Shown here: positions 3,445-38,251 of the stretch, piece after piece
How positions within the stretch are numbered: the first letter of the stretch is position 1
Layout: the number at the start of each line of letters is the position of its first letter
NCBI GenBank assembly: GCA_029582155.1
Contig: CM055894.1
Span: 29,443,707-29,507,706 of the forward strand
Direction: 5' to 3'
DNA: 64,000 nt
Origin: Panopea generosa
Taxonomy: Eukaryota > Mollusca > Bivalvia > Adapedonta > Hiatellidae
Position numbers and translations under genes: made by a program
The notes under the pieces: generated by a model
Told to the model about the DNA's origin: nothing
Database searches by the model: none
What the model saw: the letters and a program-made list of their open reading frames with translations, nothing else

Positions 3445-3650
3445 TATCTCCAAAGATCCTCCCTGTACAAGTTAACTTTGCGGGTGCCCCAGGAGATACA
3501 GTAGACATAAATATACCGTTCTACAGCTATCCCGCTGCAATCGGAGTGACCTTCGCCAAGCAAGGAGGTGGTCAAATCCAGAATGGTGACAGACACACTG
3601 AGCACATTAACAATGCTTCTGAAAGTGCATTGTTTCCATAAAATCATGTG
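3445..3650 (+). pseudogene. Receptor copy 1: Ig-like domain exon with internal deletion
   Basis: A splice acceptor (ttccag, ending 3444) opens a phase-1 frame containing PFYSYPAAIGVTFAKQGGG and then DRHT. This matches the copy 2 exon at 31449 (QFYSFPTADDVVFTKQGGG ... DRHT). After DRHTEHI the frame reaches a stop. In another frame the sequence gives LKVHCFHK, which corresponds to LELKCFHS about 50 residues further on in copy 2. The middle of the domain therefore appears to be deleted with a frame change. The domain would be extracellular. The exon is recognised by comparison between the two copies. Assigning it to the Ig fold is inference, supported by flanking Ig and FN3 exons. Confidence 0.6.
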
Positions 3651-3944
3651 TTGGTCCAATTATGCAGAAAAAAACATGGGGTTGGATCGATTGTTTTGAG
3701 ATCGATGGTGTGATGACACATTTTCATTTTTGACAATTATGCCCGTTTATTGCAATATATCACTACGCATCTTAAAACTTTCATATCTTCATTAAATAGT
3801 ACCAAATGTTTATCTAGGTTTTCATGACAGTTACATATTTTTCCAACCAAAACTGTAAAATATTGAGAGGAGAACTCAACATTGCTTTTTATTTAAGGGT
3901 CAAAACTCCGATATTGTGTATCTATTGTTGCCATTTTGACACTG

Positions 3945-3945
<1 letters not shown>

Positions 3946-4028
<83 letters not shown>
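3946..4028. repeat. (TA)n microsatellite
   Basis: Uninterrupted TA dinucleotides for about 83 bp inside the intron between the Ig-like and FN3 exons of receptor copy 1. The open frames across it on both strands are artefacts of the repeat. Confidence 0.97.
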
Positions 4029-4031
<3 letters not shown>

Positions 4032-4816
4032 GGATATATAACACCTTTATATGGTAAGATGCAGTAACTGTGCGGGTGCGAAAGTGTACACAATGTGAAA
4101 TAACGCATTTTTGACGATTCACTGACCAAAACTCCGACATGACTTTATATTTAATCAGTAATAATTTTAAAGCAGCTTAACCAATTTAGTTCAATAAAAA
4201 AACCTAGTACAATTTTGATAATTACAAACAGTATGATATCGAGCTTTCGGTGTTCATTGTATTTTAGACATGGCATAGATAATATATGCTTCCTACGCTC
4301 GTGAAAAAAACAGAAATCAATTATAAAAATGTATCAACTTCTCCATTTGTCTCATTCATAGTGTTAAAACTTATAATTTACCTGATCTTGTATTCAGCCT
4401 AACCTGTTGATACGCCGGGAGAGCCCTGAACTAGTATGACAATGTGTACTTTAGTTGAAAAGGCAAATAAACTTCGCATTTGAATAAACAATGACACATC
4501 CTGCAACCTCGTATGCCAATACGAAAAAATTTGGATAACGTGAAATAAGCAACATTTTTGGTTGACTATACGCATTAGTTGTATTATGTCATTTGACTTA
4601 AAATGAGGTAAAAAAACGCAACTGGACCAATCATCTCCTCTTGCAGTCAGATATGCTACATTTCACTTGTTTTAATATCAATGTTAATTTAATAAAATAT
4701 GTATATTGAATTGAATAATAAAAAGGGATATTTGGTAACATGTCCTCCTTCTCATAATATACAATTAATCCAATAGAACATACATGACCTCATGGCTAAC
4801 TTGTTTCAAATCACAG

Positions 4817-5131
4817 CTATACCACTTCCACCAAAGACATTTGTCTACCTTGGATTATTTGATGGTGTTCCGTGGCTTTACTGGGAACCGGGCTTTAATG
4901 GTGGACATGAACAGTTTTTCGTGATAGAATCAGCAATTATAGGGACTGACAATTGCATAGAACAAGAAGTGGTTGAAGATAAAGATCAGCGTCACCAACA
5001 AATCAACAATGCATACATCGCTAACATAACGGGATTAGCACCAGGAAAATACAGTGTCAGACTTACAGCTGAGAATAAAATAAGGCCAGTTGAAGTGTCT
5101 GACAGACCTACAGTTTATTTCACTATTCCAG
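4817..5131 (+). CDS. Receptor copy 1: fibronectin type III domain exon
   Basis: The exon lies between an acceptor (aatcacag, ending 4816) and a donor (gtatag, from 5132). It is 315 nt, phase 1 at both ends, the symmetric class typical of shuffled FN3/Ig exons. The protein has FN3 hallmarks: a proline-rich start (IPLPPK), a strand-B tryptophan (PWLYWEPG), the NITGLAPGKYSVRLTAEN block (strands E-F, with Leu and Tyr in the usual places) and a final YFTIPG. There is no internal stop. The copy 2 exon at 32139 has the same ends and a similar YFTI ending. It would be an extracellular domain next to the membrane. The ATG at 4792 lies upstream of the acceptor and is probably not used. Confidence 0.78.
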
Positions 5132-5178
5132 GTATAGTTTATAAAAGAAACAATAATATATAGACAACTGATTAAACT

Positions 5179-5222
<44 letters not shown>
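5179..5222. repeat. (CA)n microsatellite
   Basis: About 21 CA units directly downstream of the FN3 exon of receptor copy 1, within the next intron. Confidence 0.97.
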
Positions 5223-5225
<3 letters not shown>

Positions 5226-6449
5226 CATTTGCGATAACTATTCGTTCTTTTTTGTAAACAGATCAACGAAATATAATATGCATATTCTAATAAGATTGAC
5301 AATAATAGTTTAACGCCGGGTAGCCAGAGTTCATGCAGATCGACCACTCTGAATCCTCTACTGACTTAATCGTACAGATTATCGCCTAAATGATAACTGA
5401 AGTGGGACAATTTCCATGCTTTATGCTCATCATCAGCTTTCTGAATATAGTCAATACGCCATATTATTTGTTATTATCGAGGTAATATCAATGGAAATTC
5501 AAATTTGGTGAGAACGTTTCTGATGTACACGGACTGACTGCATATCACATCGATATTTCCGTGTTCAAAATTTCTGACTTTCGCAGCTACACAGTGTTAG
5601 TACACTATTATAACTCTCTTGACTGTGTGCCAGCTGAAAGCGAATGAAAGGAGCACGAATGGCATAGTTGTTTATAGCCTATTTTGCATTCCGAATGACC
5701 TATTAAAAAAATAATATCAATATGATCGTTGCGAATTCGCAGTCCTTGGAATCATAACGCTACCAATACCACTAACGCTTGTATTCACCACGATAGAATA
5801 CGAAAAAATGCTCTCTGGAATGGTTTATTGTACTTTTTGTAATCGTACCCGTGATCTCGTTACCATTATATCAAAGCAAAATTATGTTAATCAATTGAGT
5901 GGTTTGGTCAAGAATAAGTTTATCTTAGGATTAAAATGAGTATAAATCCGTTAATATAAAACATGAAGCAACGATGTAAAGACTTCATTATTTGAAACAC
6001 CTAACACATGTATTTGTATGTTTATTATATTTGAAAATGCCTACACTTCAAGTCAATTAAAAAAAAATAGTTCTATTAAAAAAGTCATGGCATCATTATA
6101 AACCTTTTTTTTAAAGTTATATGAACATTTTTTTATCAATTGCTCGTTTAATATCAACACATCGACTTTCATTTAATAAGACATTGAAACAAAATCAAGT
6201 CATACGCAGTTTTTTGCTTTAAATCATCGTATACGTTGAAATGATATTCAAGCCCGGGTAATAATTGTATATAACATTACGTTCGAAAATTGTTTTTTTA
6301 AACATCAATTAAACGCAAACTTAATAATCTTGGTGATAAAATGCTAATTACATGATCTTGACCAAATTAAATAGTATAATTGGAGAGTACATTAGTATTT
6401 TTATGTGTGGTCCGCTTTCTTTCTTTTTTATCTTTTATTATGTTTTCAG
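5223..6449. other. Intron of receptor copy 1
   Basis: This stretch separates the FN3 exon from the degenerate transmembrane exon. No exon or repeat is recognised inside it. Confidence 0.45.
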
Positions 6450-6524
6450 TAACTAACATACCTTCGTCGGCGGTATAGCATGTGCTGTAATATTTATTGT
6501 TAGACGACAAAGAAAACTCAGTAG
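6450..6524 (+). pseudogene. Receptor copy 1: degenerate transmembrane exon with paired donors
   Basis: After the acceptor (tgttttcag, ending 6449) phase 1 gives VTNIPSSAV and then a stop. A shifted frame continues as GGIACAVIFIVRRQRKLS, a hydrophobic stretch with a basic stop-transfer sequence. Compared with the copy 2 transmembrane exon (HPESLSGAAIGG ... FLTRN), about ten residues and one reading frame are missing. The exon end has two GT donors four bases apart (6521 and 6525). The same spacing occurs in copy 2 (33421 and 33425). The second donor gives phase 2, which fits the tail exon at 9364. Confidence 0.55.
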
Positions 6525-7318
6525 GTATGGAGTAGAATATACACTTTGACCGTATATGGAGTTATACATTTAACAATAGGTAAACAAGTAGTGATAAAAC
6601 TATATATAGCACTATGATAAATGTATACTGAAATATTTTCCAAATATCAATTTAAATAGCACATAAAAGGAACCTAGAGTAATAGCATCGCGTATAGTTG
6701 ATTGTGTAGTCTATTTGCATAAGCAGCTGTACCATGAGGATGTGCTCAACGATGATTTGATGGTACTATGTCTGTACTTGTTTGTTCACATTTTCAAGAA
6801 AATGTACGTGTTCAAACGTATTAAACACAAATAATCAACATGTGGAAGACAAATCAATAGATCAGCATGTGAACTTTAACATGTCTTCTACAGATAAGAT
6901 GTAGAAAACCGACGCATACCTCAAATATTCGAAAATTGCAAACTTTTGGTGCAAGATTACTTACATCGCACCTCTGCGGTCGTACGCATAACCTCGAGTC
7001 TAGCTCGGAAATGTCAGATATTATTTAATGGGACTTAAAGTCCTGTTACAAGTTATATATGCACTATTCTGTATTAGATACAGAAATACCCCATGCGGTT
7101 TAATATAGAATAGGGAACACATACCAATAACACTGGATATAGTATGACATGCAGCAGTAATGTGTGAATAAGTATAAAGAATATATACAATGTGAGCAGA
7201 GTTAAATTGTAAATTAGGTAAATAAGCATTTAGCGGCTCCCAATCGATTGTTTTACATCTGGCGTAAATTAATACAATTCTGTACACATATATTACATGT
7301 ATAAGGAGGCTTTCGTTT
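6525..7318. other. Intron sequence of receptor copy 1
   Basis: No exon, RNA gene or repeat is recognised. The open frames present are short and resemble nothing known. Confidence 0.4.
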
Positions 7319-8187
7319 TAGCTTTTTTTATTTAATATAGTTCCGCAGAATCTCATTAACAGCGCCCTCTAGCGGTACGTTTTTTTCGGACGATTTTCAC
7401 CAGTTTTTCCTTATAAAAAGGTCAATATTCAATGAAAAATTTTTTTAATAATAATTTTATAATACTTATTTTATTTCCTGTAATACTATAAATTTTTAAC
7501 ATTCACGCTTGATTGCGTAAAAATGCTCAGGAACAAGTTCTTGAAATTTACACATATTAAGATGTTAAGTCTATTCATTTCACTACAATATCATTGAATA
7601 AAAAAATTGGGTGTTCACGCTAGTTCTTTTCATAAATTCGAAGTCAAATGAAATATTTAAAAACACATGACGTTTATCTATTTCGGACGACGTCGTATTT
7701 TGGGTTAGTATTATTTGGCGTTGACGTCAAGAGTCTCCCGAAATTACAAGCAAACGTCGTGTTTTTTAAGTGTTTCATTTTAACTTAAATTCAAATTCAT
7801 GAAGCCACTAGCGTGAACACCCCCTCATTTTATTCGATCATATTTTAGTGAAATTAATAAAGATTAACATAAATATTATGTGAATTTCAAGAACCTGTAC
7901 CAGTGCTTTTACGCGCAATGAGTCGTAAATACATTATGTTTTTAAACATGCGTTTATATCAACCCCGGCGTAATGATTAGATGTAATGGTAACACAAATT
8001 GTATCTTATCTGAATGAATGGTTTACTCTTATCACTAGAAATAAAATAAGTAAATACAAATTTGAATAAATATTGATTGTTTTACAAGGAAAATACAACG
8101 AAACTCGTCCGAAAAATACGTACCACCAGGGGGTGGGGGCGCTGTTAACGAGCAACTGAGATACTATATTAAAATAATGAAAAAAGT
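7319..8187. mobile_element. Fold-back (long inverted repeat) element, ~0.87 kb
   Basis: The left end reads ...ttaatatagt ... ctcattaacagcgccc ... ggtacgt..ttttcggacga. The right end, reverse complemented, reads ttaatatagt ... gctcgttaacagcgccc ... ggtacgt..ttttcggacga. The match continues inward through 'gttcttgaaattt', 'gtgttcacgctag' and 'cacgacgttt' to a centre near 7715, so nearly the whole element is one imperfect palindrome with arms of roughly 370-430 bp. No transposase frame is present, so it is non-autonomous. It sits in the intron between the transmembrane and micro-exon of receptor copy 1. The superfamily is not determined, and flanking target duplications are not clear. Confidence 0.8.
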
Positions 8188-8525
8188 TTTCATAGATCAA
8201 TTTTACAGATTGTTGATAAATTACGCGAGATGTAAAATATCCGATAGGAACGCCGCGAACTACCTTAATGAAACGTATGCATTTTCTATACTACTGTTAA
8301 TTATGTAATGTTCACGCCCTCATCTAAATGCTTAATAACATTATCTACGTCAACTTATTAATTTGCATTCTTCAAATTTAGAAACGAAATTCGATATGAA
8401 GTAAATATGTTGAGCGTGCTTATAAACACTTGGTATATTATACATTACAAAGAGCGTGATGTTAGATAATATGTCAATTTGTTACTCATTTGTCTTACTC
8501 TTATCGAACAGTTACTGTCTTTTAG

Positions 8526-8565
8526 AGCAAACTGCAGAAGGCGTCACCTAAAAAGTATCTGACAG
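8526..8565 (+). other. Receptor copy 1: candidate 40-nt micro-exon with in-frame stop
   Basis: An acceptor (tgtcttttag) and donor (gtaatc) bracket 40 nt. Entered in phase 1 it reads KQTAEGVT and then TAA, and would leave in phase 2, which fits the next exon. The copy 2 micro-exon (36986-37019) behaves the same way, with eight codons then TAG. Inclusion would give a short cytoplasmic tail lacking the YxxL motifs. It is too short to be certain without transcripts. Confidence 0.4.
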
Positions 8566-9363
8566 GTAATCATATTTTACACTTACTTTATAATGTCATG
8601 ATTATGTATTATATAAAAACTGCATCCCCGGCTGAATGTCAGACTTATTATTTAAACGCATATTAATGGTTTTATTTGCTTATATAGTTAGTATCTTTTA
8701 CAAGATGTGTTTTTGTTTCAAATACGTTTGTCTTATAATATCTTGCAAATTTTGATATTTAACTTTATAGAAACAAACGATCATATTCGTTTAGTACACG
8801 GTGCAATTGCAACCATGAACGTGTGTATTTGTCGCTGACGCTGTCGCTGTTAAACAACTATATTAGGAAATAAATAACCTTTATTTAATTATAAGTTTTT
8901 AAGGAGTTAACCTTCAAGAAACAAGCAATTTCGCATTTGAAATGGATTACATATGGTGGTTATTTGTAACTCTCTATATTGTTTTTTACAATGCAATTCA
9001 GCAGGTATATTGTTTTTAATTAGATTAAACTTTTTTTTTAAATAAGAACGTTTTAATTCAAATAAAACGAGAACGTATGTAAAACTAAATGTATATATAA
9101 ATAAAAAAACATAACACCATGCGTTTAAAAAAGTAAAAAGCACTTACTGATTATATCCATAAGCAATGGTGCTAATTTTACAATTCGTGTTGAATTTATT
9201 TGTAAAGTAAAGACTTGTAAATTTGGAAGTTAACTACTGCCAAACAAGGGTATATTCTCGCTTTATCAAAGGTGTCAAATCATTCTTTATTTTACAGCAT
9301 ACTTTTACGATAATACTTTGATGCAGTGCTTATCTAAAAAAAAAATAATGTATACCTTTTCAG

Positions 9364-9449
9364 TGATACCAATGCAGCCACTTATAAAACTACCATGTCC
9401 AGTAATCGTAGCGAACATCTGTATACAGATCTTAAGGCTACCCCACAAG
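9364..9449 (+). CDS. Receptor copy 1: cytoplasmic tail exon with YTDL motif
   Basis: The exon lies between a strong acceptor (ccttttcag, ending 9363) and a donor (gtatct, from 9450). It is 86 nt, phase 2 at the start and phase 1 at the end, identical in phase to the copy 2 exon at 37880. It encodes 28 residues starting DTNAATYKTT and containing SEHLYTDLKATPQ. YTDL is a YxxL tyrosine motif of the kind bound by SH2 domains when phosphorylated, and it pairs with YGNL in the next exon. It would lie in the cytoplasm. The call rests on phase agreement and motif parallel with copy 2; the exon alone would not be recognisable. Confidence 0.62.
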
Positions 9450-9966
9450 GTATCTGATTTTCTGTGTGTTTTTTACTTTATCAAAATCATGTTTATATAT
9501 ACAAGTACATATGTATATATTCTTTTGAAATCTAAATAGGATTTTGACATTTCATTTACGCTTTAAATTGATATATCTTTCTTATAATTAGCCCTTTTTA
9601 TTATTTATTTTTACCGATCAAATCAAATGAAACTATTTATCACATTACTACAGTGACTTCTACTTCTACTGACACAACTACTGCTAGTAAAATGATAATA
9701 CGTGTATCAATGATATAAATAGTAACAATAAAAATAATAATAACAATGATACTTAATGTATCACCAGTAACTTTATTTCAAGTATTACTAATACACTATT
9801 GCATCAGCTATATTCACATGGTCGTGATTCGATAACCACTTAAGGTGAGGTTTGTCTTTAAGCAAAACACTTTAACGTATCAATTCTACATAGGAATATT
9901 TCAATCGTGTAAAGCATTTATATGCAGTCAATGTAGAATAAATAGTTTTCCATTTAAAGTCGGGCA

Positions 9967-10140
9967 GAAGTGATTTGTGTAATGTGTTAACTGATCCCTT
10001 CGGAGGTTGCGGGTACGATCCCAGGATCGACCAGATAGCCTCTCAAATATCAATACTCAGTACTGGTTCTACTCTAGAAACGGACTCATGAGGCGGTTCA
10101 TTTATGCTCTAAGTTTCATTTTGCAATCAAACAAAAATAA
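9967..10140 (+). mobile_element. tRNA-derived SINE fragment
   Basis: A B-box-like segment (gttgcgggtacgatccc, near 10007) is followed by a body with 'ctcagtactggttctactctagaaacggactc'-type words, similar in style to other tRNA-headed repeats in this window. The A-box half is weak. It lies in the last intron of receptor copy 1. Read as an old SINE; the family is not assigned. Confidence 0.5.
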
Positions 10141-10824
10141 AACAGTATAAGTTTACCTTCCAATATCATTGCTAGATTTAATTCAGCTATTTAATTTTAC
10201 TATAATTATTATTTAAAACTATTATTTAAATAAGCACTTTTATCGTAGACTTCGTGGAAACCCTTTATAAAATCTTTATCATTAGCATTGTCATATTTAT
10301 AAATGGATACCTAAATATTAACTATTATGTTCTCATGTAGCTATATACACAATAGTATGTGCGGGACAGGTGCCGACGTCATGTCGTGCATTTCTAGTTC
10401 CATGTCACTCGTGATGCCAAAGCTTCATACAATTGAGCATCAAACATTTTGACAATTTGTTGTAAGGGTGTTATGCATAAATTGCTATTGTCATGGCTGG
10501 GTCAGTTATTGAAGTTATTCTAGTCATTTTCCATGGAGATTGTACACCAAAAAATTCGTCGGTGCTATTTCTAAACAAAAAAAAAACAAGTCATTCTTGG
10601 GTTTCCATTGCAGACTAGGTAATTGTAATAGCTTTCACAGATGATTTTCGAATTGAATCGCACTGTTTGATAATTGTCCTCTCTTCTGTGACGTCAAAAT
10701 GACACATTTTGTTTTGTCTGCACAAATGCAAATAGTTATGAAAACAGCTTGCGAATTTTAGACAATGTCATAACCATAACTCTTTAAAATAGTCTGTATA
10801 AATATCATTTTTGTTTAATTTCAG

Positions 10825-10889
10825 GCGCGAATAAACCACATACAAATATGGAAATGTATGGAAATTTAAAACTCCAGACGAGCCGTTAA
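10825..10889 (+). CDS. Receptor copy 1: last coding exon with YGNL motif
   Basis: The acceptor (taatttcag) ends at 10824. Entered in phase 1, as the previous exon requires, it reads 21 residues ending EMYGNLKLQTSR and a TAA stop at 10887-10889. The matching copy 2 exon (38199-38251) ends KAYENLKI and stop. The shared YxNLK near the C-terminus supports the frame. Tyr-x-Asn is the Grb2-type SH2 binding pattern. With YTDL in the previous exon it forms a YxxL-x16-YxxL pair, longer than a classical ITAM spacer of 6-12. Confidence 0.65.
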
Positions 10890-13800
10890 ATATAGATGAA
10901 TGTGTGCCTGACGAATACAATATCATTGGCTTGCATTTCTTGAAGAAATCTGTTCATATATAAATGTTGTATTTCTAGTTTCGACATATATGTCTTATAT
11001 GTATGTACACTGTCTAAAAACGAGTGAATATACCGAATGAAGTTTAACAAATAAGACTGTTATTGCATTATCAACAATTCGGCAGTATCATTGTTATATA
11101 ATCAAGCGGACGCTTATGTTGCATTTTGGTGTCAAAATGAAATGAATAATGAATGATCCATTTCTATGCCATATGTTTTATGATGTGGTTTCGATCAAAA
11201 CATATGTTAATAAACTAATCATACTTTTAATATTCGACTAAATCATACTTTTTATATTAGTGTAAGTACAGTTACCGAATACACAGTTGCTTTTATTACA
11301 AAAGTGATGTATTATAAATATATATGACAAAGTGATATTATTAGAACAACCTCGTACATGTAGCTTGTCTTATCGTTTAATGAAAAATAGTTATTCATCT
11401 GATATTTACATGTCAATATTTTTTTACTATTCTAACTGTAGCGCTGTCATTCTTTAAAGTGCTAAATGTAACTGAACTATTAATTTCAGTGCAAATATCT
11501 AAAGGTTACTAGCTGATACCAGTGACCTTGCACAAAATGCTGGAATTGGCAGTAGTTTAAATATAAAGCACAACTGTAATTAAATTGAATGAAAGAAATA
11601 TGACATGAACATAAGTAAAGACAAAACAACGCCTGTTATAAAGTCAAAAGCAAACAAAGTCCATAACTGCGTGATACCAGCCAATTTGGTTGCATTGCAT
11701 TTTCCCTTATTAAAACATTTGGTTATCAATTAGTAACAACACTAATGCAAACATATCCAGACAAGATGCTGTTGGAGTATTTGATGACGAATTAAGATTG
11801 TAAATACCACGACTGATTAACGGGAATATATCAGGATTTTTCCAAAATTTTAAATTGCCATTTTTTCCCAATATTCCATACCTATTTGTAGTCACTGTCA
11901 AAATAAATATATTTAAACATGCCAACATAATATATTGAAAAGAGCTTTCCTAACTTGGGCTCGAATCTGGGTTAGACAAAAATAGATTTAAAATGGCAAC
12001 ATATTTTGTGACGTACTAAATGAGTCACGTGATTTCATTTTGATTTCAACTAGATCCGATTTACAGGTTTACAGTTTGTAAAATATTTATCCTAGAAAGA
12101 GCCAGAATGGCAATGCATAGGTAAACAAACAGTATTTAAGTGCTGTCTACTTTAAGAGTTGGTATTTCGATTGTGTTTCGCTTCTGTAGATTTAACTAAT
12201 TTTACTATTCGGGTTATATTCACTAATGATAATGAGATGCTTTTTATCCATTTTTTTAAATATTTTATTTCATTTATAGCGTTATCATCATTTACTCCCT
12301 TTAAGTGTTAATTAACTTGTATTATCATATTTCATACATAATATTTGTGTTCATGTGTATACTTACGTTGCTGCTTTGTCATTTTTCTTGTAATTATACT
12401 TTATGTTGCCGACTTACCGATAAACTTGAGTTGATTTTTTTTTCTTCTTATTTTTAAAATTATTCTTCTAGTACACCGTATGTAAACTATCTATATCTTC
12501 AGTTCGCTCAATGTATTGCATGTTGCGTTTCTCATCATTCATATCACATATTTTAGGTATAAAATTATCCATGACACATAATTTAAATAGGCAATCTGGT
12601 AATAATGTCTGATATACTATATATATCTGGTTTGTATGTTTACTGTATTACTCGATTGATTTTATGATTCACTAAACTATTAAAAGGACTTGGTACCGTA
12701 TTCTTATTGTACTGCTTTTTTTGTGAATTATTAGCATTTGTCAATGAATTTTGATTAGTAAACTATTTAGAACAGTGAAATAAACACAACAATTATTGTT
12801 GTCAATCATTAACATTAATAAATATTTTAGTGAAATATCAATTACACTTCACTCTCTATACTGAAACAACCGTGATAGCTGGTCATTGCTTTTATTGAAT
12901 AAAGTTAACAGCATATAGTATCTAGCATATTCGATTTGATACATTTTCCTTAATTTAACTTGCTATTCAGACGTAGACTTTGCCTATAATTGGAAAAACA
13001 GACTTTTGGGACTTTTCCCGTGCTGTATATATATATTTAGTATAAGTTTTTATCAATAACTGACTACATAATAATGTATTTAGTTTGCACACTACCTTAT
13101 ACCTTATTTTAGAAGAAAAATACATGTACACGTTTTTTCAATATTCATGTTATTTATATAATCATTGTGTTTTCTTTTTAAAAAAAATCACTGTATCTAA
13201 TAACTTTATGACTGGTGATAAATCTAAATCAAGAAGATCTGCATAATATAATCTTTAACGACGTCCTTTTTTATCTTTGTTTTAATACTTTTGTAGAACA
13301 ATATTGTAAATAAATAATGTTATTTAAACGAATTTACCGTGACTGATATTCGGCTTTCATGATATCATGCACATATTTGAGGGATAAGGTTTTGTATACA
13401 GATAGATAGACCATTTATAATAAGGCAAAATGATCAATTTGATTACTTTTATACAAATTTTGGCTGTTAGTGTATTACATATGATGTGAATATCAATATT
13501 GATCGAGGTGATCTACATCCATACTGGCATAGTACATAACGCAGGTATGGCGCCAACGGTTAAGGGTGTCGTTATACAGCCGACGAATACTATGTCTTAC
13601 GTCGTATATGCCATTGAACAATAAATCTATAAAATGTAAATACATGTAGTTCAATAAAAACTGGGTGAAACATGGAAAAACCTGCTGGTCTGTCTTTCTT
13701 TAAAAACATCTTTGTTAAGTACTGTTTAAATTGTTAAGCGAGTTACTTCCCTTAGACCGTTGTTAGCGAATTTACGGCAAAAGAAGTGTCGACATTGTAC

Positions 13801-14213: not shown

Positions 14214-14332
14214 CAGACTTACCTATAAATACATCCTTATTCACCGAGCTATACAGACTTGCCTATAAATACATCCTTATTCACCGAGCTATACAGACTT
14301 ACCTATTAATACATCCTTATTCACCGAACTAT
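14214..14332. repeat. 40-bp tandem repeat, three copies
   Basis: The units begin with 'cagactt' at 14214, 14254 and 14294 and contain 'aatacatccttattcaccga'. They differ at only a few positions. No coding role is evident. Confidence 0.93.
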
Positions 14333-15010: not shown

Positions 15011-15263
15011 AATTATATTGTGTCGTTAGTGACTGCTCTCAACTGAAACTCTTATGTATATACACTAGTTTGCGTAAACAGTTAATAGATAGATATACAT
15101 TGCATTAGTAAAAATCAAAGGAAGACATTTAAACGCGATAAAGATTCTGAATTGAAGGGTTCACCCATAAACATTGTTTTTTTCAGCGGAATAAATGGGT
15201 GGAGTTATGCGATATGTTTTGTGGGCAACGTTGTGTTTAGTTTTCCTAGTATGTGATTTCACA

Positions 15264-15637: not shown

Positions 15638-15809
15638 GTATTATTTTTTAATATTTAGATGATCTTTAACTGACATGCGAGAAGTTTATCATTTATTATT
15701 GCCCATGATGTGTATCCTCGATTTACAGTCAAAACAGCCCCAGACCAAAACAATAATTGACCATGTTGACATTGAATCTTGATAATAATTGAACCTTTGT
15801 GTTTGCTTG

Positions 15810-17800: not shown

Positions 17801-17829
17801 CATATTATGAAAGTGTATGGAAATTATAC

Positions 17830-27849: not shown

Positions 27850-28022
27850 ATTTTACTGATAATTTTCTCACTTGAATCAACTGTGAGAGACGAATGAATT
27901 TGCGAAACAATACCGTATATCAAACATCACGGAGACTGCGGCCGAGCGAAGATTCGAACTCGAATTGGAACCACTGGATTGATAGTCAGAGGCGCTATCG
28001 ACTGAACTAACAGGTCCCGACT
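27850..28022 (-). mobile_element. tRNA-derived SINE (family 1), - strand
   Basis: On the - strand it has 'ttagttcagtcgatagcg' (A box), 'tgactatcaatccagtgg', 'cgagttcgaatcttcg' (B box), 'gtctccgtgatgtttgat' and 'cgtctctcacagttgattcaag', aligning with 16288-16530. Confidence 0.85.
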
Positions 28023-28854
28023 CTAAATTAGTGTAGTGTAATAGTATTATAACAAAACTACAAATATTAATGATATAAACTTTACGTAGAAAACTTAACA
28101 AATAATGCAAAGGAGGCAAACATATCTCTTCTATAAAATATTTATTTTATTTTATTGTATTTGCTTTAAATGGGAAAAAGAAAATAATCACACACAAATA
28201 ATTCGAACAATAATATGACTTCATTCGTTTTAAATTTCCATATTATAGATCTAGGATTTATTTCAACACCATTTCTAAACGGAACTGCATATAAAGTGAC
28301 AAAATGATATTAAATGAATTTAATAAATGATCTATTTTGTCACTGCTATTGCACCATGGATTTGGTTTATGGTAAATTACAGACAGTATGCAGATTAAAG
28401 GTAATTGGTTTATCATACCTTATTTAATATGACTCTTATGACAATTTTAATCTCGTCAGAAGATCATCACAACTTATAGAATGTGACAATCGTGTCTTAA
28501 AGAATTGATCAAAAATAAATTAATTCAAAACATACATGTACAAATTTAATTAGTTGTAAAGCAATTTATCGACAATAAATACGCATAATATCAAGATTGA
28601 TAGTTGATTGGTCAAATATATGAAAACGAAGATATTATAGATTTTATAGACAGTGGTGCACCCATTATGCAAAAATTTATCAATATAAAATAAATTAACA
28701 AAACTATTAAATCATAATAAATAGAAGAAAAAATTGAATAAGGATTTTCCAATTAAGTACTGTTTTTAGGTACCGTTTTGTGGATTCATATATCAACTGT
28801 ACATTAAAGTTGACTCCTGACCCACTAAATTAGAAAAAAGGAAGGATATATATA
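28023..28854. other. AT-rich intron sequence
   Basis: No exon or recognised repeat is visible. Confidence 0.4.
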
Positions 28855-29315
28855 CAATCCCACTCTGCCAGAGAAGGAATAATCCTTACCGATATCGAGC
28901 TTGGGACTATCTTAATTGATATTTTTAAAAACACAAAATATGAAAACCCCTACTCTGCCAAAGAAGTATAAATCCATGCCGACTTGGAAGCAGCTAAATT
29001 CATGAAACACACAACATGCCACCCCTACTCTGGCAGAAAAGGAGTAATACTTGTCGATATCGGACTTGCGGCTATATTTATTGATACAACGCAAAATGTG
29101 GATCCCCTACTCTGCCAGACAGGGAGTATTATTCCTTGGCGATATTTGATTAGGCAGTATCTAAATTAGAATAGCACAAAATATACAACACCTACTCTGG
29201 TAGAGAAGGAGTAATCCTTGCCGGTATTGAACCTGGAAGTATTCTTATTGATAAAACACAAAGTATGCAACACCTACTCTGGTAGAGAAGGATTAATCTT
29301 TTCTATACCAGATCT
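28855..29315. repeat. Tandem repeat, ~73-88 bp unit, six copies
   Basis: Units start with 'c(c)tactctg(c/g)(c/t)a' near 28860, 28948, 29021, 29105, 29190 and 29271. They continue 'gagaaggagtaatccttgccgatat ... cttg ... tatcttaattgat ... acacaaaatatg'. They diverge by perhaps 15-25%. The array lies in an intron of receptor copy 2; open frames across it are incidental. Confidence 0.9.
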
Positions 29316-29389
29316 AATTATGTTTTAATTGAATAAATAACTCTGATTAACGGGACAAATTAGAATTACGTTATTCCACATTACCTCAG

Positions 29390-29610
29390 CGTGGTCTAGC
29401 AGTACAACATGTGCCTCGCATGCGGACGAAGATCTTGGGTTCTACCTCCGGCCGGGTCATACCAAATATTCGAGCAATGGTACTAGAAACTTCTTCGCTT
29501 AGCACTCAGTATTAAGAGAATAGTTCTAGGTATGGTCGGCCCGGTGTCAGTATAACGTGGCTGGGTTAGGTATCATACTATGCGCCTGTATGAATGAAAA
29601 GGAATAAAAA
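29390..29610 (+). mobile_element. tRNA-derived SINE (family 3)
   Basis: The head has 'gcgtggtctagcagtacaac' and 'cttgggttctacctccgg' (A- and B-box-like). The body has 'gtatggtcggcccggtgtcagtataacgtggctggg' with paired blocks and a 'ggtatcatactatgcgcctg' end. A distinct body sets it apart from families 1 and 2. Confidence 0.75.
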
Positions 29611-29639
29611 ACGAACATCTGTTTTAAGGATTTCACGGA

Positions 29640-29850
29640 ATATTTCGATGTTTTTATTGGTTATTGGCATTGCAGGACGACCAGGGCTACACTCATCTTT
29701 CATCTGCTGTTGTCTGGATTAAAATTTGGCCATTCACGAATAGTACTATACGACATTTGATCCTCGCCATAATAGTCCAAAACCTCTTGGCTTATGTCTT
29801 TCAACGTCAACACACGTTAGGTCACCTCGAATATAGGCTCTAATTACAAA
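29640..29850 (-). pseudogene. Mariner transposase N-terminal fragment
   Basis: On the - strand, pieces in different frames read VIRAYIRGDLTCVDV, YYGEDQMSYSTIREW and ECSPGRPAMP. In order these match the helix-turn-helix half of a mariner transposase (the Y-G-(D/E)-x-x-(M/L)-S-x-x-T(V/I)-x-x-W and GRP linker blocks). It has several frameshifts, is short and has no catalytic part. Confidence 0.65.
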
Positions 29851-30370
29851 TACATTTTCAGCTCGTTTGCCAGGTATTTTACATACAGTCTAATGAATAC
29901 GATATAAAGCAACGCACATTGCAGCGAGCCAGGCAAAGTTTACCTGTGACACAAACTAGTGATCACTCAATCTTTACTTACTTGAATTTATATTGTGTGT
30001 GATTGTCATAAGTTAATACTATAGTAGGAACACCTTTCGTATAGTATCTGTTGATTAACTTTTTTTTTCTCCAAAATTGGGTTTTTCATGTGTATTTGTA
30101 CTTAAAATTAGTATCGTGCGACGGTTACTTCTATGTTATTGTCTTTATAAATGTATCATAATAGAAACGTTTACAAAACGTCTGACGTGTTAGAATAATT
30201 TCACATCGTTGCCGAAGAGACGTCTTTGATACATTTTAAGTTGTATATAGGTACGTGATATAATCGCCGCTTGTTGTCATAATGATATTAAATGTCAACA
30301 AACATTCAACACTAAATGTATAACATTGTTGAAAGCGCGTTGAAATTAAAACTGTATCTATACAATACAG

Positions 30371-30599
30371 GGGGAGCATATTCAACGCCGTTCAGTCAAG
30401 TTCCCCATTCCCATGGCGTGAAAATCAGACAGGAAAATACGTGTTATGCTCATCAAGTGACTACGGTAATCCAAGTTATACAGTAAAACTGACATCTCCG
30501 TACGGTACACCAGACGGTGTAAACAGAAAACTTTCGTTCCGGGAGTTATTTTACATCCGCAACAACAAAAACATAACATGCGAACTTAGTAATGAATAA
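30371..30599 (+). pseudogene. Receptor copy 2: second Ig-like domain exon, frame broken
   Basis: After an acceptor (ctatacaatacag, ending 30370) one frame reads PFPWRENQTGKYVLCSSSDY, then YTVKLTSPYGTPDG and FYIRNNKNITCEL, and stops with TAA at 30597-30599. Two cysteines about 45 residues apart with GKYVLC and NITCEL are Ig-like. The acceptor phase (2) does not agree with the preceding phase-1 exon, so a one-base change upstream is likely. No donor is obvious. Probably extracellular. Confidence 0.5.
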
Positions 30600-31448
30600 A
30601 CACGACTCTTGCCTTTCCGCTCAATTATTCTAAAAACAATCATTGCGCCTAGAGTGGAGCCCCAGCATTGGGTCTAACTCTTATATAACCAAGTTCTTTT
30701 AGAGCTATACATGTAATTGATTCCTTTCCTTGTCACAGATACATATGTATATGGTGAAGTCGTACTAACCAAATAAGGAAGACAGCAGAAAAACATATAT
30801 ATTACAACTGGAGATCGAACCTGCGACCATTCCGTCTAAAACAGTTCATCGCTATATATTAGAATTGAGACATTTTCATACCTATTATTCAGTGCTGGTT
30901 CAGGAACAGCCGTATCTGCCGATAATGTCGAATACGTCCAAGTACTTCAATGCCATATCAACATAAAATCGTCAATAAACTATCACCTGGTATATTGAGG
31001 GGTAAGGTTTTACAAAGGTGAAAATAATGTGGCATTTCAGTATCAATTACATATATAATAATCATACTAAGTATAATACACACATAGATAGGTGGCAAAG
31101 GAATCATCGCATTGAATCTGCCGGTACCACAACCGAGACTGACTCCGTTACTGCGTTTAACGAGGTTAAATAAAAATAGTGTCGCCATAGTGTTTCAGCA
31201 TGTATATGTAGTAAAATATATCTTAGTTAATTCACGATAACATGCATTAAGTAAACAATTTACATACAACATTACCAAATAAATATTTCTGGGTTATAAG
31301 GTTAATATTTTATCTAGTTTCTTTTAATGTGTGTTGCATAAATACTTTTATTTCTTATTGGTATCAATACATTATAGTATTAAAAAATATATTTTTATGA
31401 TTTTTTATGATACAGTATAATTGTTTGTGACAACTCTTTTTGTTTTAG
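30600..31448. other. Intron sequence of receptor copy 2
   Basis: A degraded tRNA-like piece (30810-30850, reverse orientation, 'gatcgaacctgcgacc') suggests an old SINE remnant. Nothing else is recognised. Confidence 0.4.
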
Positions 31449-31770
31449 TTTCTTTCACTTTTTTCAAAGATTTTTCCTATACGAATACATTTTTTGAGTA
31501 CCAAAGGAGATTCCTCAAATATGAGTATACAATTCTACAGCTTCCCCACCGCAGATGACGTCGTCTTCACCAAACAAGGTGGCGGTCTCATCCAGGATGA
31601 CGACAGACATACTGTGTCATATCCTCAAGCACAAATATTGAACAAGTACTATGGCCAAGATGTTACACTAGATGGAAATACAGCCATTCTACAAATAGCT
31701 TACGTACACGAGGAAGAAACAACAAGGGTACTGGAACTCAAATGTTTTCACTCAAATCGAAGAATAAGTT
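31449..31770 (+). CDS. Receptor copy 2: Ig-like domain exon homologous to 3445-3650
   Basis: Acceptor candidates are tgttttag (ending 31448) or ttcaaag (ending 31469). The frame reads KIFPIRIHF ... NMSIQFYSFPTADDVVFTKQGGG ... DRHT ... DGNTAILQIAYVHEE ... LELKCFHS and stays open to 31833. It aligns with copy 1 over the first 50 residues and again at LELKCFHS/LKVHCFHK. Only one clear Cys is visible, so this is an atypical Ig-like or related beta-sandwich domain. The phase-1 entry seen in other exons would need a one-base change in the T-run near 31458. No donor was identified and the exon end is approximate. Confidence 0.55.
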
Positions 31771-32138
31771 TTATAGCCATGTTTAGATTTCATAATCATG
31801 TTAACTGTTCTTGGAAGCTATATATAGACTTATAAGTCAATTGGGTAATTCATATTTAAATCATTACCTAACTCTCTCTTAAATAAAACAATAACCGCAA
31901 CAAAAAACCATAGAAAATAACGTTTATACACTCCATCAGCATATTTCTATTGTTTTCATCTGGAAAACGAAATGTGAGTGTTGTGATTTAGTTAAAACGA
32001 TATAAGGTTAAGAACACTGATTGGTTTTGATACTTTTTATATACATTTCAATTTAATTGCCTTGAAATAATTCATGATATACTCCTTCACAACGACTTGA
32101 TAACATTTTATATCACTTTTTATAACGACGTATTTTAG

Positions 32139-32434
32139 GAATACCAGAAACACCTAAAAAATATCTGAGACAACGGCAGTTGTATTCTGGGAACATGTCT
32201 TCTATGGAACTGATAACCACACTAATGTTATACAGTTAAGCAAAGATCTTAAAATATGGACGGATTATGTCTCTATATACGGTGCAGAAGAAAACAATTC
32301 AACATATCCGAATGCGAAAATTGACCTCTTAAATAAAACCACACAATACTTTGTGAGGATGTTCGCATACAATACAATTGGAAAGAGTCAGGTGACCCAA
32401 ATAGTGTATTTTACTATTCTAGAACAACAGAAAG
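32139..32434 (+). pseudogene. Receptor copy 2: fibronectin III exon, one base short
   Basis: The exon lies between an acceptor (gtattttag, ending 32138) and a donor (gtaatt, from 32435). It begins GIPETPKK in phase 1, and the rest (TTAVVFWEHVFYGTDNHT ... LNKTTQYFVRMFAYNTIGKS ... YFTILEQQK) is in the next frame. The switch falls at the A-run 32156-32161. The length is 296 nt, one less than a phase 1-1 exon of 99 codons, so a single-base deletion explains it. FN3 landmarks are the Trp (VVFWE) and the TTQYFVRMFAYN block. It is the counterpart of 4817-5131. A homopolymer sequencing error is possible. Confidence 0.75.
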
Positions 32435-33288
32435 GTAATTTATACTACAGCAGCATATACTGAGTTTAATTCAATTGCTCATTTTATTAAAGCCAATGAT
32501 ACTAGCCGACTTTGAATTTTATTCCTTTCGATTTATTGACTCGATTATCATTATATATATTACACGATTGTATAAAGTATATTTGCTTACATTGCTAGAG
32601 AAATGAAGAGATTAGCTCTTGCATATCTCGTAAATCGATGAAATTAATTCGAGTCTGATGTGTTCTTTTCGAGGACGCGATATGTCTGTTCTATCAAATA
32701 TTGCATTAAGGTGCATGTGGCAATGTCCAAAATTTCAACTATATATATATAGTCAAATAGTATATGCATGAATTTAAGCAATGTTTATGTTCAAAATGTA
32801 CTATGAGATATCTCGCTAATTTCTGTTATACTTCTATATTATATGTAGCGTTTGGCGCATTTCAGCTGACTGATGACATATGATAAATGAGGGAGGATTG
32901 CTTTTATAAGTTCATACCTCCTACTTAAGGAAAGAAGTTGCGATAATTCAAGACGATATTTCCAATGAATATACGGAATTACAGTTATGAAATATATTTA
33001 CAATGTTTTACATCTGATTCGTTAGCCTTAATGTACTAAGTAAATCGCGCGTATTTGTCACAGAGCAGGGTTAGGCCCACCAAGGTCGACCGTTTTAAGT
33101 GTTTTAGTGTTTTTCATTACTTTTGTTTAAATGTCTAGAACAAACCACCATTATATGGCAAAATATATTAAGTCTGCTCTTAATCATATTGTCAGTAAAC
33201 GTGTGTGTTTTATACAGATATACACAACGCTGGAACTCATTATCTTATATAAGTAAAGAAATAATAAAAAGTAATTTATGCTTTGCAG
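32435..33288. other. Intron of receptor copy 2
   Basis: This lies between the FN3 and transmembrane exons. No exon or recognised repeat is present. Confidence 0.45.
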
Positions 33289-33420
33289 AATCGATCCACC
33301 CGGAGTCATTATCTGGGGCGGCAATAGGTGGAATTGTTGCTGGATGTATAGCCCTTGTATGTTGTGACATTTTTGTTTTCTTAACAAGAAATTGCAAAGT
33401 CCATTGTGAGAAGAAATCTG
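33289..33420 (+). CDS. Receptor copy 2: transmembrane exon
   Basis: The exon lies between an acceptor (atgctttgcag, ending 33288) and a donor (gtcagt, from 33421), with a second GT donor at 33425. Joined in phase 1 to the FN3 exon it reads E-SIHPESLSGAAIGG followed by the hydrophobic segment IVAGCIALVCCDIFVFL and then TRNCKVHCEKKS. This is a small-residue linker, one membrane span of about 20 residues and a cysteine/basic stop-transfer sequence: a type I single-pass receptor. Donor 1 leaves phase 1 and donor 2 leaves phase 2. Confidence 0.72.
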
Positions 33421-33425
33421 GTCAG

Positions 33426-34737
33426 TAAAAAAACAAAACTATGCAAATATTTTACTGGAATGTATTTGTTTCTTGCTTTGTAACCGTGTTAATCAAAATT
33501 ATTTTGCTCATAAAATTAGAACTAACATAATTGATAAAAGTATAGCAATGTTCTGACTATGAAATACAATTAAGTGAATAATGATATGTTGTTTTTTTAA
33601 ATATTGAATATTGTTTGCACGAAATATCGAATAACTGTCGTAAGCTTGGAAATTTCAAATATGATTTGATGATGTTTTTTTTTAAATTAATGTTCTTTAC
33701 AAAAACAAAGTAGAATTTCAATATTAATATACACAACACTTGTTCAAGGAAAAGTAATTCATACATAATTTTGATTTGATGAATAGGAATTCCAGACACT
33801 ATCGCATCTGCCAGTTATGTTGACTTGTATTGTATTGTATTTCAATTATATAGCTATAATATAGTAATTTAACGTGTATAGTATAATGCAGTGCTTTCGA
33901 TACCGAATATATTATATGATCAGCTAAAGTTGTATTGTCATATTTAACACTCAATATTAGTCAGATCTGGTATTCTTGTTTATCTTCTTAGCAGTACTTG
34001 TCAATTTCACAGAATGATCAACAATGTGTTATCCAAGGCAGTAAACAGAGGATCAAACACGAATCTTTTCTGTTATTAAATTTATCAAACGAATTGGTTA
34101 AACATATTTATAAGAATCTGAGAGCAGAATATATTATATTTTTACCAAACATTTTAATAAATGTTACAACAAATCAGTACTAATTTGACATCTTTTTATC
34201 ACATAATACAATATATATATATATGCCGTTTAGTATTTAAACTCTCATTATCAGGGACGACAATAAAATCAGTTGTCCAAAGTGCTATGAATAACTTGAG
34301 AGGATATTTTGTTCTAACAAAACTTCAAATTACATACGTACCCCTCCCATTATGTATCGGAGGGATATCCATCAATTGTGTAGGGTCATACATACTGTTT
34401 TATTAATCACGATACGATATGACGTCAGCGTCCCATGATGATGCTATTTCCAGTGATTACTTATAACGTCAATTAAATCTGAAAGTAGCTTGAAATGTTA
34501 TTTACGAGAGTTGTGTTACATAAATTATTATGTACACCACTTAGCGATGAGTATGTCGTGATTTAACTAGGCTATTATAATTAAACTATATCACGGATTT
34601 ATTACACTTTCTCATCCTAAATAATCCTAGTTTTATGTTAGTTTTCTATCATATTTGTTGTACTATAAATTTGAACTACTTGTGCAAATTACTTTCTTCA
34701 TTATATCGTACTACTTAACTATACAAGGAATATATAT
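33426..34737. other. Intron of receptor copy 2
   Basis: The open frames near 33998 and 34161 are AT-rich and show no similarity. No exon is assigned. Confidence 0.4.
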
Positions 34738-34812
34738 TTATATGGAGATTATTTTTTGTGAATAACGAGACATAAATGTACATACCGGACTACGGTGAAC
34801 GCGCCTAACTTG
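34738..34812 (+). repeat. Partial fourth copy of the ~410 bp repeat
   Basis: The words 'tatggagattattttttgtg', 'aataacgagacataaatgtac' and 'cggactacggtga.cgcgcc' match the starts of the units at 1351, 1761 and 2171. It ends abruptly at 'cgcgcctaact'. The repeat is therefore dispersed as well as tandem. Confidence 0.8.
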
Positions 34813-36040
34813 TGCTATCACTTTAAAGCGTTTTATTTCTTTTACAAATTTTTGAACATATTACAGTGTTGAAATATTTATTTCTTAACCCTTGTCTTAA
34901 AGGGATCCAACATTCACAAGAAACAGAAGTAACAGAGGTAATCTCTTTTAGTTATTTGTTAAAAAAGACCATAAATCCATTACTTCACAAAACATAATAT
35001 TCCAAAATATACTGAATTTACATGTTGGAAGAAAAATGAAAATATCCCGTTTGAATGTCAAATATACTGTAGAACATAAACGAAAAGTAAGATAAAAAGT
35101 ATTTATTTCAGTGTTTGTTAAACTGTCATTTGCAGATACACATTTGTTTTGTTCGTGGCGGTAAATGAGCTCACGGAATCTCAAAATTGATTTACAATAT
35201 GACATGCATTAAGAGTAACCTAGCAATGTTTCCAGGTTTTTCCTTCTGTATCATCTTCATTGTGTTGTGTGCAAGTGAATAACCAACATTTATGCTGTAA
35301 TGTACGTACATATAATGTATATTCAATCAAGTTTTAAACTCTAAATATTAGGATTCTAAAATTAGCAATGCATTTTTTTCAAAAATATATGTATTTAGGT
35401 TAGACTTGTTTTTAAGTATTAACAAAGCAAGCCATTGACACATTCGAAAAACAACGGCACATATATAAGTTTAATTCAATATCTATTGAAAATTAATTTA
35501 GATTATATTTAATGAACAAATGAACGTTTGAATATATTGCCAATTTATATATGCAAAGCCAATGAAAATAATACTTTTTTTGTTGAGTAACGATGGTATG
35601 TAAAAAGTAAGTGATACAATACAAATATTTTGTGTACTATTTCTTGCATTTCCATTACGTTGTTTTTGTGGGGTTTTTTTTGGTTTCATTATTATATGCT
35701 CCACATTGCAATCAACATATCACAAAATAACCGCAGTAGAGTAGGCATTTTCACATTGTAAGGGGCAATCGGATATTTTAGACAAACGCGTTTCAGTAGA
35801 AACTATACCAGGACTGTCGAAACGTTTATATCACAATAGCTACAAAATGCATGAAATAAGGTTTATCATGTACACTAATCGTTTTTTTTGTTATCATTGT
35901 GAATAATAATTTAAATTGTAAAATAAGAGGTTATATTAAAACGCGTTAAGCTATATTTTCTGAATTGTGTGATGTACATTGGTCATCTATTGTCTCCAGC
36001 GCAACGTTTTACAGGTTGAACTAGAGACAATCTGACATTA
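34813..36040. other. Intron of receptor copy 2
   Basis: A 35-nt acceptor/donor-bounded open segment at 34902-34936 (GIQHSQETEVTE in phase 1) is a possible but unsupported exon. A short hydrophobic reading follows an acceptor at 35235. Neither has a counterpart in copy 1. Confidence 0.3.
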
Positions 36041-36625
36041 AAGATGATCTTCACAAATCAGCTGGTATTGCTGCAAACATATCTTCAGTACATGCATGCA
36101 TCAAAGAAGATACTAGATAAACCTAAAATTATCCTTTTCATATATTTGGCATCTTGTCGGCAACTGATCACGAGATTCTGACAAAATATAAACATCTAAC
36201 GGTAAACTTTGTTCTAAACGAGTACCTCATCTCTTAGCTGAATCCCAAAATGCTACGAGAATACAAAATTGCTTCAGATATAAAAATATGTTGAAAAAAA
36301 AAACACAAATATGTGAATTGCTTACTGGTGACGAAACATGGTTTCTCGATATTCGTCAATTCAAGCAATTATGTCTTTCAAATTTCTATCCTTAAAGGTC
36401 GATCAATAACTGGTAACTTTAACTACTCTTAAAAGCGGTCAAACATGTACATAAAAAAGAAAACCAGCAACTGATGTGTAGGACATAAGCCTCTTGCGTG
36501 ATAATGCAGCTGCCCACAATAGCCAAATTGTCTAGGAGAAGAAATGGTCGTGCAGTTACCACACCACCACGCTTTCCAGACATGAGTTCTTGTGATTTCT
36601 TCCTTTTTCTTCAACTGAAAAAAAT
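36041..36625 (+). pseudogene. Mariner transposase remnant
   Basis: Pieces in several frames read, in order, HKSAGIAANISSVHACIKED, CSKRVPHLLAESQ, LLTGDETWF, LARDNAAAHNSQIV and SCDFFLFLQLKK. These are the HTH-linker, the PHxL linker motif, the first catalytic Asp block (TGDETW), the second (RDNAAAH) and the third-Asp region of mariner. Many stops and shifts make it long dead. It lies in an intron of receptor copy 2. Confidence 0.75.
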
Positions 36626-36985
36626 CTGACCGATGTTATATCACAAAATGTGTTATTGGTTCCGCCATTATTCAGTGTCTGCAGAGTATATCAGTGTATT
36701 TCCGTAAATGGAGTTCTCGTTTTGAAAAATGCGTTTAGGTCATTGGAGAATACAAATCAAAATCAAACTGAAAGAAAACGAACAGATTTAACGTTAGGAG
36801 CTGTCTCAATTTTATTTTTCGATTGCCTCTCGTATTGCGTCTCAGTATTATTTTAAACTAGTTTTCACTTGAACGTTTAAAACAAGAATGTTTTTTGGTA
36901 AAACAACTTTATTATACATGCATATAGTGTATCGTAAACATCCGTTTATACAGTCGTGCATTTATATGTTATTTTGTCATTTCAG

Positions 36986-37019
36986 ATTCGGCCACGTTAT
37001 ATAACACATAGGACCTTAG
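36986..37019 (+). other. Receptor copy 2: candidate 34-nt micro-exon with in-frame stop
   Basis: A strong acceptor (attttgtcatttcag) and donor (gtaagt) bracket 34 nt. Entered in phase 1 from donor 33421 it reads DSATLYNT then TAG (37009-37011) and would leave in phase 2, fitting 37880. The copy 1 micro-exon also has eight codons and then a stop. Inclusion would yield a short tail. Confidence 0.5.
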
Positions 37020-37879
37020 GTAAGTTATAATTGTTGTGTGTTACGTAAAAAGTAACTAACATCGTTTTTGTACGGTTTTAATACTTCGATTTGTTGTTTA
37101 TGTTTATATCTTGAACGCGACTCATTTCTAGCCAAAAAGCGTTCATAAAAAGTGTCGACTGAAATTTTTTGGTGTTTTTCATAACTCTAAATCAAGCATA
37201 ATCTTTTAGGTATGTGATGTTCATATAATCCGAAAAGAAGACATTTCAAAACAACGAAAAATAACCAGATATACATGTACATGTATTACTGTTACCCAAG
37301 GTGATTGTACCGGCAAAATGATTTTTAACACAATTATTTTTAAAAGAAACAATAACAAACCATGAATCAACTCAACAGTATTTTTCAGTTGTAAATAAAA
37401 ATACATTCTTTTATGATGACATACTGGAAGTTCAATTACATAAGTAAACGTCCATCAGCATTTTAACAGGTTGCAGTTTTGACTAAACTTAAGTTCTAAG
37501 TTGATTTTGTTCATTCCAACATTTGTTTTTTCCGTAAATGTTTTTGAACATAATTAGTTTCTAAAAGCTGATTATATGCCACTGCTTGTATTTAGGACTG
37601 TTAAAATACATTTGACTGACATATGCGCCCTGAACGATAGTACATGTTTTTTTCCTAGCTATTCCTTTGATTCCGTTTCATTGATATGCCTATTGAATAT
37701 AGTGTGAATTCAATAGAAACCACACATCAAATGCAGTTTAGGTTATATAGCTACAAATGGAATTAATCACGAGGAAGACGTCTATAAAACATAATAAGAA
37801 ATGTGTTACATGTACGTAAGTCTTATACAATATGTTGAGTGTGCTGATACTGATACTATATTACTTTGTTCTTTTTCAG
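37020..37879. other. Intron of receptor copy 2
   Basis: Nothing coding is recognised. Confidence 0.4.
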
Positions 37880-37953
37880 CGACATGTCTCAATGCAGTAC
37901 ACTCACCGATAGAAACTCTATCGCAGATGCTTATGACAATTTATATACCAGAG
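37880..37953 (+). CDS. Receptor copy 2: cytoplasmic tail exon with YDNL motif
   Basis: The exon lies between a strong acceptor (ttctttttcag, ending 37879) and a donor (gtacag, from 37954). It is 74 nt, phase 2 to phase 1 as in copy 1. It reads DMSQCSTLTDRNSIADAYDN and LYTR. YDNL is a YxxL motif and also fits the Tyr-x-Asn Grb2-SH2 pattern. The exon is reached in frame from the second donor (33425) with the micro-exon skipped, giving a His at the junction. Confidence 0.65.
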
Positions 37954-38198
37954 GTACAGTATGCTAATAATTAGTGTTGTTATCCAATAAACTGTGTATT
38001 TATGTACTTTTGTTATAAATCTATATGCCCTATATTATTTGTGTCTGTTATAAGATAAGTAATACCATAAGTGAACTTTAAACACTTGTTTCAAATGTGA
38101 AACTGTGAACTGTAGGCATTTTTTATTTAAACAAATAATTATACATATGCGCAGATGTCAATATACATTACACGAAAATGTTTTCGTTTTATTTTCAG

Positions 38199-38251
38199 AA
38201 TCAAGTGGAACAGTGCCTACAGCAAAAGCATATGAAAACCTTAAAATCTAA
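38199..38251 (+). CDS. Receptor copy 2: last coding exon with YENL motif
   Basis: The acceptor (tttattttcag) ends at 38198. Phase 1 reads ESSGTVPTAKAYENLKI and TAA at 38249-38251. The spacing to YDNL is 14 residues, so the pair is YxxL-x14-YxxL, close to but longer than a canonical ITAM. The ending parallels YGNLKL in copy 1. Untranslated 3' sequence follows; a polyadenylation-type aataaa is at about 39106. Confidence 0.68.

Follow-up and report, generated by a model that had tools for sequence, protein, structure and literature searches.

Two very probably inactivated members of a large Ig/FN3 receptor family with tyrosine-motif tails in Panopea generosa

The stretch of Panopea generosa DNA analysed here, 64 kb in length (G000:C1:29443707-29507706; hereafter the window), carries on its plus strand two series of exons resembling those of immunoglobulin (Ig)/fibronectin type III (FN3) receptors, which we call copy 1 and copy 2. 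They are very likely inactivated members of a large receptor family, each from a different subfamily; the family is concentrated on contig C1, and its intact members would be single-pass receptors signalling through SH2 domains. Judged by sequence, a family of Ig/FN3 single-pass receptors with Tyr-motif tails exists in this genome and the window copies are members of it by descent; they probably make no full receptor themselves. The assembly searched comprises 1.47 Gb in 39 contigs, and its loci are cited here by L numbers.

Rereading by eye and by script bore out the two plus-strand series reported in the first-pass annotation, each with Ig-like, FN3-like, transmembrane (TM), micro-, tail 1 and tail 2 exons in that order. 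The phases given for the tail exons (2-1 and 1) are indeed the same in copy 1 and copy 2, and the residue spacers (YTDL-16-YGNL in copy 1 and YDNL-14-YENL in copy 2, counted by eye) are correct. The rereading added three features: a tail-exon relic and the initial Tyr of tail exon 1 in copy 1, and a distal Ig exon in copy 2. In both copies the exons for proximal Ig, FN3, TM and tail are homologous to those of the family and follow its order, with the micro-exon in phase 1-2, tail exon 1 in 2-1 and tail exon 2 in 1. Between the copies, the proximal Ig pieces share 51% identity over 49 residues and the FN3 exons 28% over 86 columns. A detector for the tail pair, the criteria of which were chosen after both cases were known, fires at both window tails and at none of the 267 overlapping stretches of window sequence used as background; applied to 24 fetched loci, it proved insensitive, finding the real pair in L013, L020, L028, L030 and L034 and false pairs in L017 and L029 (the latter with a false first exon). 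A Pfam scan of the window exons gave no Ig match, and fn3 only in copy 2 and under the cut-off, whereas Pfam does recognise Ig in relatives. PDB sequence searches returned nothing useful, and AlphaFold models built from two sequences were poor (mean predicted local distance difference test scores of 57 for FN3 and 41 for Ig). The FN3 model weakly resembles FN3-type sandwiches at low confidence (best E of 0.023, with unrelated folds intermixed), and the Ig model is uninterpretable, its best structural matches being lipocalins and thioesterases.

The analysis did not confirm that these exons are spliced together as a gene. Splice sites (AG acceptors, GT donors) compatible with an open frame were tabulated for each domain; acceptors or donors are missing and the micro-exons contain stops, so that in neither copy does an open reading frame run through all of the exons (Table 1). 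The 3' half lacking from the copy 1 proximal Ig exon is present in the intact paralog L030, and the copy 1 TM exon has no in-frame splice acceptor. Both copies have a duplicate 14 Mb away at C1:43.37-43.42 Mb, with 95-98% identity over six aligned blocks; the segmental duplication covers 2836-13312 and 27479-37321 of the window. The duplicate carries every named lesion except the 28-nt deletion of copy 2 and its 1-nt FN3 difference, and has some lesions of its own. As the lesions are common to the copies and the duplicate, the copies would have died before the duplication.

Table 1. Exons of the two receptor copies in the window and their condition
Feature	Position	Strand	Observation
Copy 1 membrane-proximal Ig exon	3445..3640	+	5' half only (~50 residues), then a stop
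Copy 1 FN3-like exon	4817..5131	+	Open, phases 1-1; no Pfam fn3 match
Copy 1 TM exon	6450..6524	+	Broken: other sequence in place of the 5' part, 15 nt deleted, out of frame (versus L030 and the 43.37-Mb sister L034)
Copy 1 tail-exon relic	~6798..6893	+	VNFNM here; VYYNM or VYYNV in intact paralogs
Copy 1 micro-exon	8526..8565	+	40 nt, phase 1-2; in-frame TAA, TTA in paralog L032
Copy 1 tail exon 1	9364..9449	+	TYKT ... YTDL, phase 2-1
Copy 1 tail exon 2	10825..10889	+	YGNL, terminal, phase 1
Copy 2 distal Ig exon	30370..30599 (start approximate)	+	TAA cuts off the reading; no good donor; compared with L029
Copy 2 membrane-proximal Ig exon	31449..31835	+	28-nt deletion causing a frameshift; only poor donors
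Copy 2 FN3 exon	32139..32434	+	17-nt deletion and 1-nt difference; in-frame acceptor absent
Copy 2 TM exon	33289..33420	+	Open, phase 1-1
Copy 2 micro-exon	36986..37019	+	34 nt, phase 1-2; in-frame TAG, TTG in paralog L029 (LYNTLDL)
Copy 2 tail exon 1	37880..37953	+	YDNL; lacks the initial Tyr of the pair
Copy 2 tail exon 2	38199..38251	+	YENL, terminal

The micro-exons of the copies, which belong to two different subfamilies, both have a stop in place of the corresponding Leu codon (TAA for TTA and TAG for TTG). The shared position looks odd, and we take it as coincidence because both copies have other lesions. It is also what would be seen if the copies encoded truncated or decoy receptors, translation ending in the micro-exon to leave a TM protein without tyrosine motifs; we consider this very improbable, as the upstream exons are broken too (half of an Ig exon missing, FN3 and TM frames lost) and that codon encodes Leu in the intact paralogs, L029 and L030/L032. 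That the copies are functional and their breaks are assembly errors is scarcely credible: one copy 2 FN3 difference does sit in an A run and is absent from the duplicate, but the TAA and TAG stops, the 17-nt FN3 deletion and the TM lesion recur at C1:43.37-43.42 Mb, half an Ig exon is gone and each copy has several lesions. With nearly all of them present in a separate duplicate, errors of sequencing are unlikely to be responsible.

What such a gene looks like when intact can be read from other loci. The first-pass annotation had made its receptor family depend on further members with Ig, FN3 and TM exons followed by paired YxxL motifs, and these were found in L030/L032, L029/L033 and L020/L073. 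The L030/L032 chain runs through distal Ig, proximal Ig, FN3 and TM exons, an exon encoding VYYNM, the micro-exon and the two tail exons; its splice sites are GT-AG and it is free of internal stops. It gives 452 residues (stop counted) and lacks its 5' end. L029/L033 has the same chain without the VYYNM exon (410 residues, 5' end lacking), and L020/L073 is stop-free from the proximal Ig through the tail (310 residues). Further upstream Ig exons are present in L021 and L026. Pfam finds Ig_3 in the L030 chain (5.7e-13) and also recognises Ig in exons of L021 and L028; against a cut-off of 25 bits, fn3 scores 27.8 in the L029 chain and reaches 46 in an L021 exon. Intact members are predicted type I single-pass proteins in which Ig domains, including a membrane-proximal one, are followed by a single FN3 and a TM helix; their tail is built of small Tyr-motif exons.

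The family is large and lies mostly on C1. Match counts given here are lower bounds for large families, and rows per contig were counted by eye. The proximal Ig of copy 2 as query gave at least 116 matches at E <= 0.01 (134 scored; the two window exons are included and one locus is counted twice), with 105 on C1, and the copy 1 FN3 gave at least 24 (52 scored), with 20 on C1. Tail exon 1 of a relative gave at least 51 matches at E <= 1 (54 scored; E of 0.25-0.35 for the four weakest), 46 of them on C1 and two of the 51 with a stop. About 54 of the 150 scored rows of an fn3 genome scan (612 candidates) are on C1. The genome also holds a dense tandem cluster of FN3 exons at C18:4196575-4257666, several with identical scores, which is separate from the C1 family. 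Stops occur in L018, L024, L025, L049 and L053 as well, and birth and death therefore appear to be general in the family.

Tail exon 1, aligned across subfamilies, has the form Y-x2-X, 8-9 residues, Y-x2-L. In two fetched members this is a canonical immunoreceptor tyrosine-based activation motif (ITAM) within one exon: YTSL-x8-YDSL in L020 (C1:44.24 Mb) and YTAL-x9-YTSL in L028 (C1:99.60 Mb). In the other tails aligned the first motif has no Leu at +3, as in YSAF-x9-YDSL (L033), YETA-x9-YTDL (L032) and YEST-x9-YTDL (A type); YETA and YSAF are the degraded first motifs of the subfamilies to which the window copies belong. The pattern YxxL/I-x(6-12)-YxxL/I matches neither of the two window tails nor the A-, copy1- or copy2-type tails. 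The description of the tails as ITAM-like thus holds for part of the family (L020 and L028) and fails for the window tails, in which the pair spaced by 16 or 14 residues is not the ITAM-like pair; it consists of the second and third Tyr motifs. Among 35 full-length tail-1 rows, which represent the A and copy-1 types, Tyr7 and Tyr20 are invariant, with Leu (31), Ile (3) or Val (1) at +3 of the second Tyr; this table includes window copy 1 and its sister, and 22 of 38 short fetched tail stretches entered it, being full length. Over all 51 tail-1 matches, read by eye, 49 retain Tyr7 and 50 retain Tyr20, and the rule-breakers among the 16 shorter stretches read in this way are L049 and L053 (first Tyr lost, with a stop) and L050 (second Tyr lost). 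In most of the members read, YENL closes tail 2; L010-L012 have YQNL instead, and L025 has YVNL.

The likeliest function suggested by these motifs is SH2-based receptor signalling, and we prefer SH2 signalling via tail 1 in the members with canonical motifs, together with adaptor docking at YENL, because it best accounts for the fixed spacing and the invariant tyrosines. The Ig domains would bind a ligand or cluster, upon which a Src-type kinase would phosphorylate the tail. The subsequent steps would follow from the SH2 preferences of Syk, Grb2 and PI3K: members with YxxL-x8/9-YxxL would bind a tandem-SH2 kinase of the Syk type, an adaptor of the Grb2 type would dock at YENL, and PI3K could be recruited by members carrying VYYNM, while subfamilies without Leu in the first motif (YEST, YETA) may signal mainly via single SH2 sites. 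We infer an immune role from analogy with the oyster and snail families discussed below and from the expansion pattern.

Several observations weigh against this picture of the family. Pfam detects no fn3 in the L030 chain at E <= 0.1, nor does it assign the L021 proximal Ig exon to any family. No homolog was found outside this genome by protein searches (with a two-copy profile, an Ig profile and the FN3 exon) or by scans of viral and prokaryote contigs, in collections that are mainly microbial and in which animal genes are not expected. Canonical ITAM spacing occurs in just two of the fetched members, L020 and L028. The dN/dS values of 0.35-0.51 over six exons (tail 1, 0.44 in 33 rows, window copies excluded; FN3, 0.42 in ten rows; Ig exons, 0.35-0.45 in 5-9 rows) are below 1 and so speak for coding constraint, with the caveat that they are pooled NG86 counts over non-independent pairs that include members with stops. 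Finally, YxxL also works as an endocytic signal (YxxPhi), and L020 (SHYNTV, SQYTSL) and L028 (STYENL) match the consensus [SIVL]xYxx[ILV] of the immunoreceptor tyrosine-based inhibition motif (ITIM).

The last two points each underlie an alternative. The family might be adhesive or neuronal, akin to Dscam or cell adhesion molecules, or its YxxL motifs might serve endocytic sorting rather than SH2 docking. We regard this as unlikely, while allowing it real weight: YxxL does fit the sorting motif, and the FN3 of L021 also matches a DSCAM FN3 model (40.6 bits; cut-off 39). Sorting, however, would need neither a second Tyr at a fixed spacing nor the Asn at +2 of YENL, and expansion with many pseudogenes would be typical of immune receptor families. 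A little less probable again is that the tails are inhibitory, of the ITIM type, or that the family mixes activating and inhibitory members. Beyond the consensus matches, an oyster receptor of the Ig superfamily (IgSF) is termed inhibitory in the title of a paper; against it, none of the five further tails tested (A-, copy1- and copy2-type and the two window tails) contains the ITIM consensus. Because L020 and L028 fit the ITIM consensus as well, the motifs do not fix the sign of the signal as activating or inhibitory.

A broader reading, offered tentatively and on balance doubtful, is of a chromosome-scale complex of at least dozens of Ig/FN3 receptors in an invertebrate, their tails all going back to a single ITAM exon that has since diverged into forms with a canonical (YxxL) or a weakened (YxxF, YxxT/A) first motif. 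The result would be a paired-receptor system of activating and modulating members, laid out much like the leukocyte receptor complex of mammals; births and deaths of its genes would be rapid, and two dead members would lie in the window. Should the intact members prove to be expressed in immune cells, with tails that signal, the family would be a large, fast-turnover Ig repertoire with ITAM-type signalling outside vertebrates and a defined gene set for testing wiring of the Syk/Grb2 type. The window itself appears to record gene death, with members of two subfamilies inactivated and later duplicated together.

The window as a whole is AT-rich (28-41% GC per 4-kb block). A minisatellite of ~45 copies of an 83-base unit occupies 45563-49335, and a THAP-domain reading frame lies at 15195-15662 (PF05485, 5.7e-10). 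Possible pieces of a long interspersed nuclear element, labelled by eye, lie at 59637-63903; one is a coiled-coil-like open reading frame that matches no Pfam family, the other a fragment of an endonuclease (PF14529, 0.00017, under the cut-off).

No description of an Ig/FN3 family with ITAM-type tails was found in the open-licence literature, as far as the parts consulted go (including PMC11999971, PMC9505182, PMC5877582, PMC4346834, PMC6851185 and PMC10875847), subscription papers being mostly outside this scope; the terms immunoglobulin, fibronectin and tyrosine are absent from the abstract and opening of PMC8382680. Vertebrate ITAM receptors share the YxxL-x8/9-YxxL seen in tail 1 of L020 and L028, whereas the other sampled tails have no Leu after the first Tyr. 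Arthropod Dscam is likewise built of Ig, FN3 and TM segments with a tail of small exons, which carry predicted SH2-binding sites and an ITAM (PMC6851185). It differs in being one gene with alternative exons and a 9Ig-4FN3-Ig-2FN3-TM order; here there are many loci, with an Ig exon directly before a single FN3. Two FN3 directly before the TM, preceded by Ig and four FN3, would mark a Dscam, and the chain models have one FN3, the upstream reading extending over the fetched 10 kb.

Closer in kind are two molluscan systems, both set beside the C1 family by description. According to a review, the oyster CgIgIT2 has five Ig domains, a TM segment and an ITAM, and titles of papers that the review cites mention inhibitory and B-cell-receptor-like signalling (PMC11999971); CgIgIT2 and its relatives among the oyster IgSF receptors resemble the present family in having extracellular Ig domains, one TM segment and a cytoplasmic tyrosine motif (PMC11999971), and differ in that the CgIgIT2 description is without FN3 and in that a few genes are described, against a C1-wide family here. 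In Biomphalaria, polymorphic transmembrane clusters and related single-pass Ig/FN3/C-type-lectin genes encode diverse single-pass Ig/FN3 receptors over megabases, including an FN3 exon with nonsense variants (PMC10875847). They share with the C1 family the grouping of single-pass receptors with Ig and FN3 domains (PMC10875847), and are unlike it in their combinations with C-type lectin and TMEM154; the terms ITAM and tyrosine are absent from the main text as consulted (PMC10875847). The nearest described kinds are thus the oyster Ig receptors with an ITAM and the single-pass Ig/FN3 clusters of the snail.

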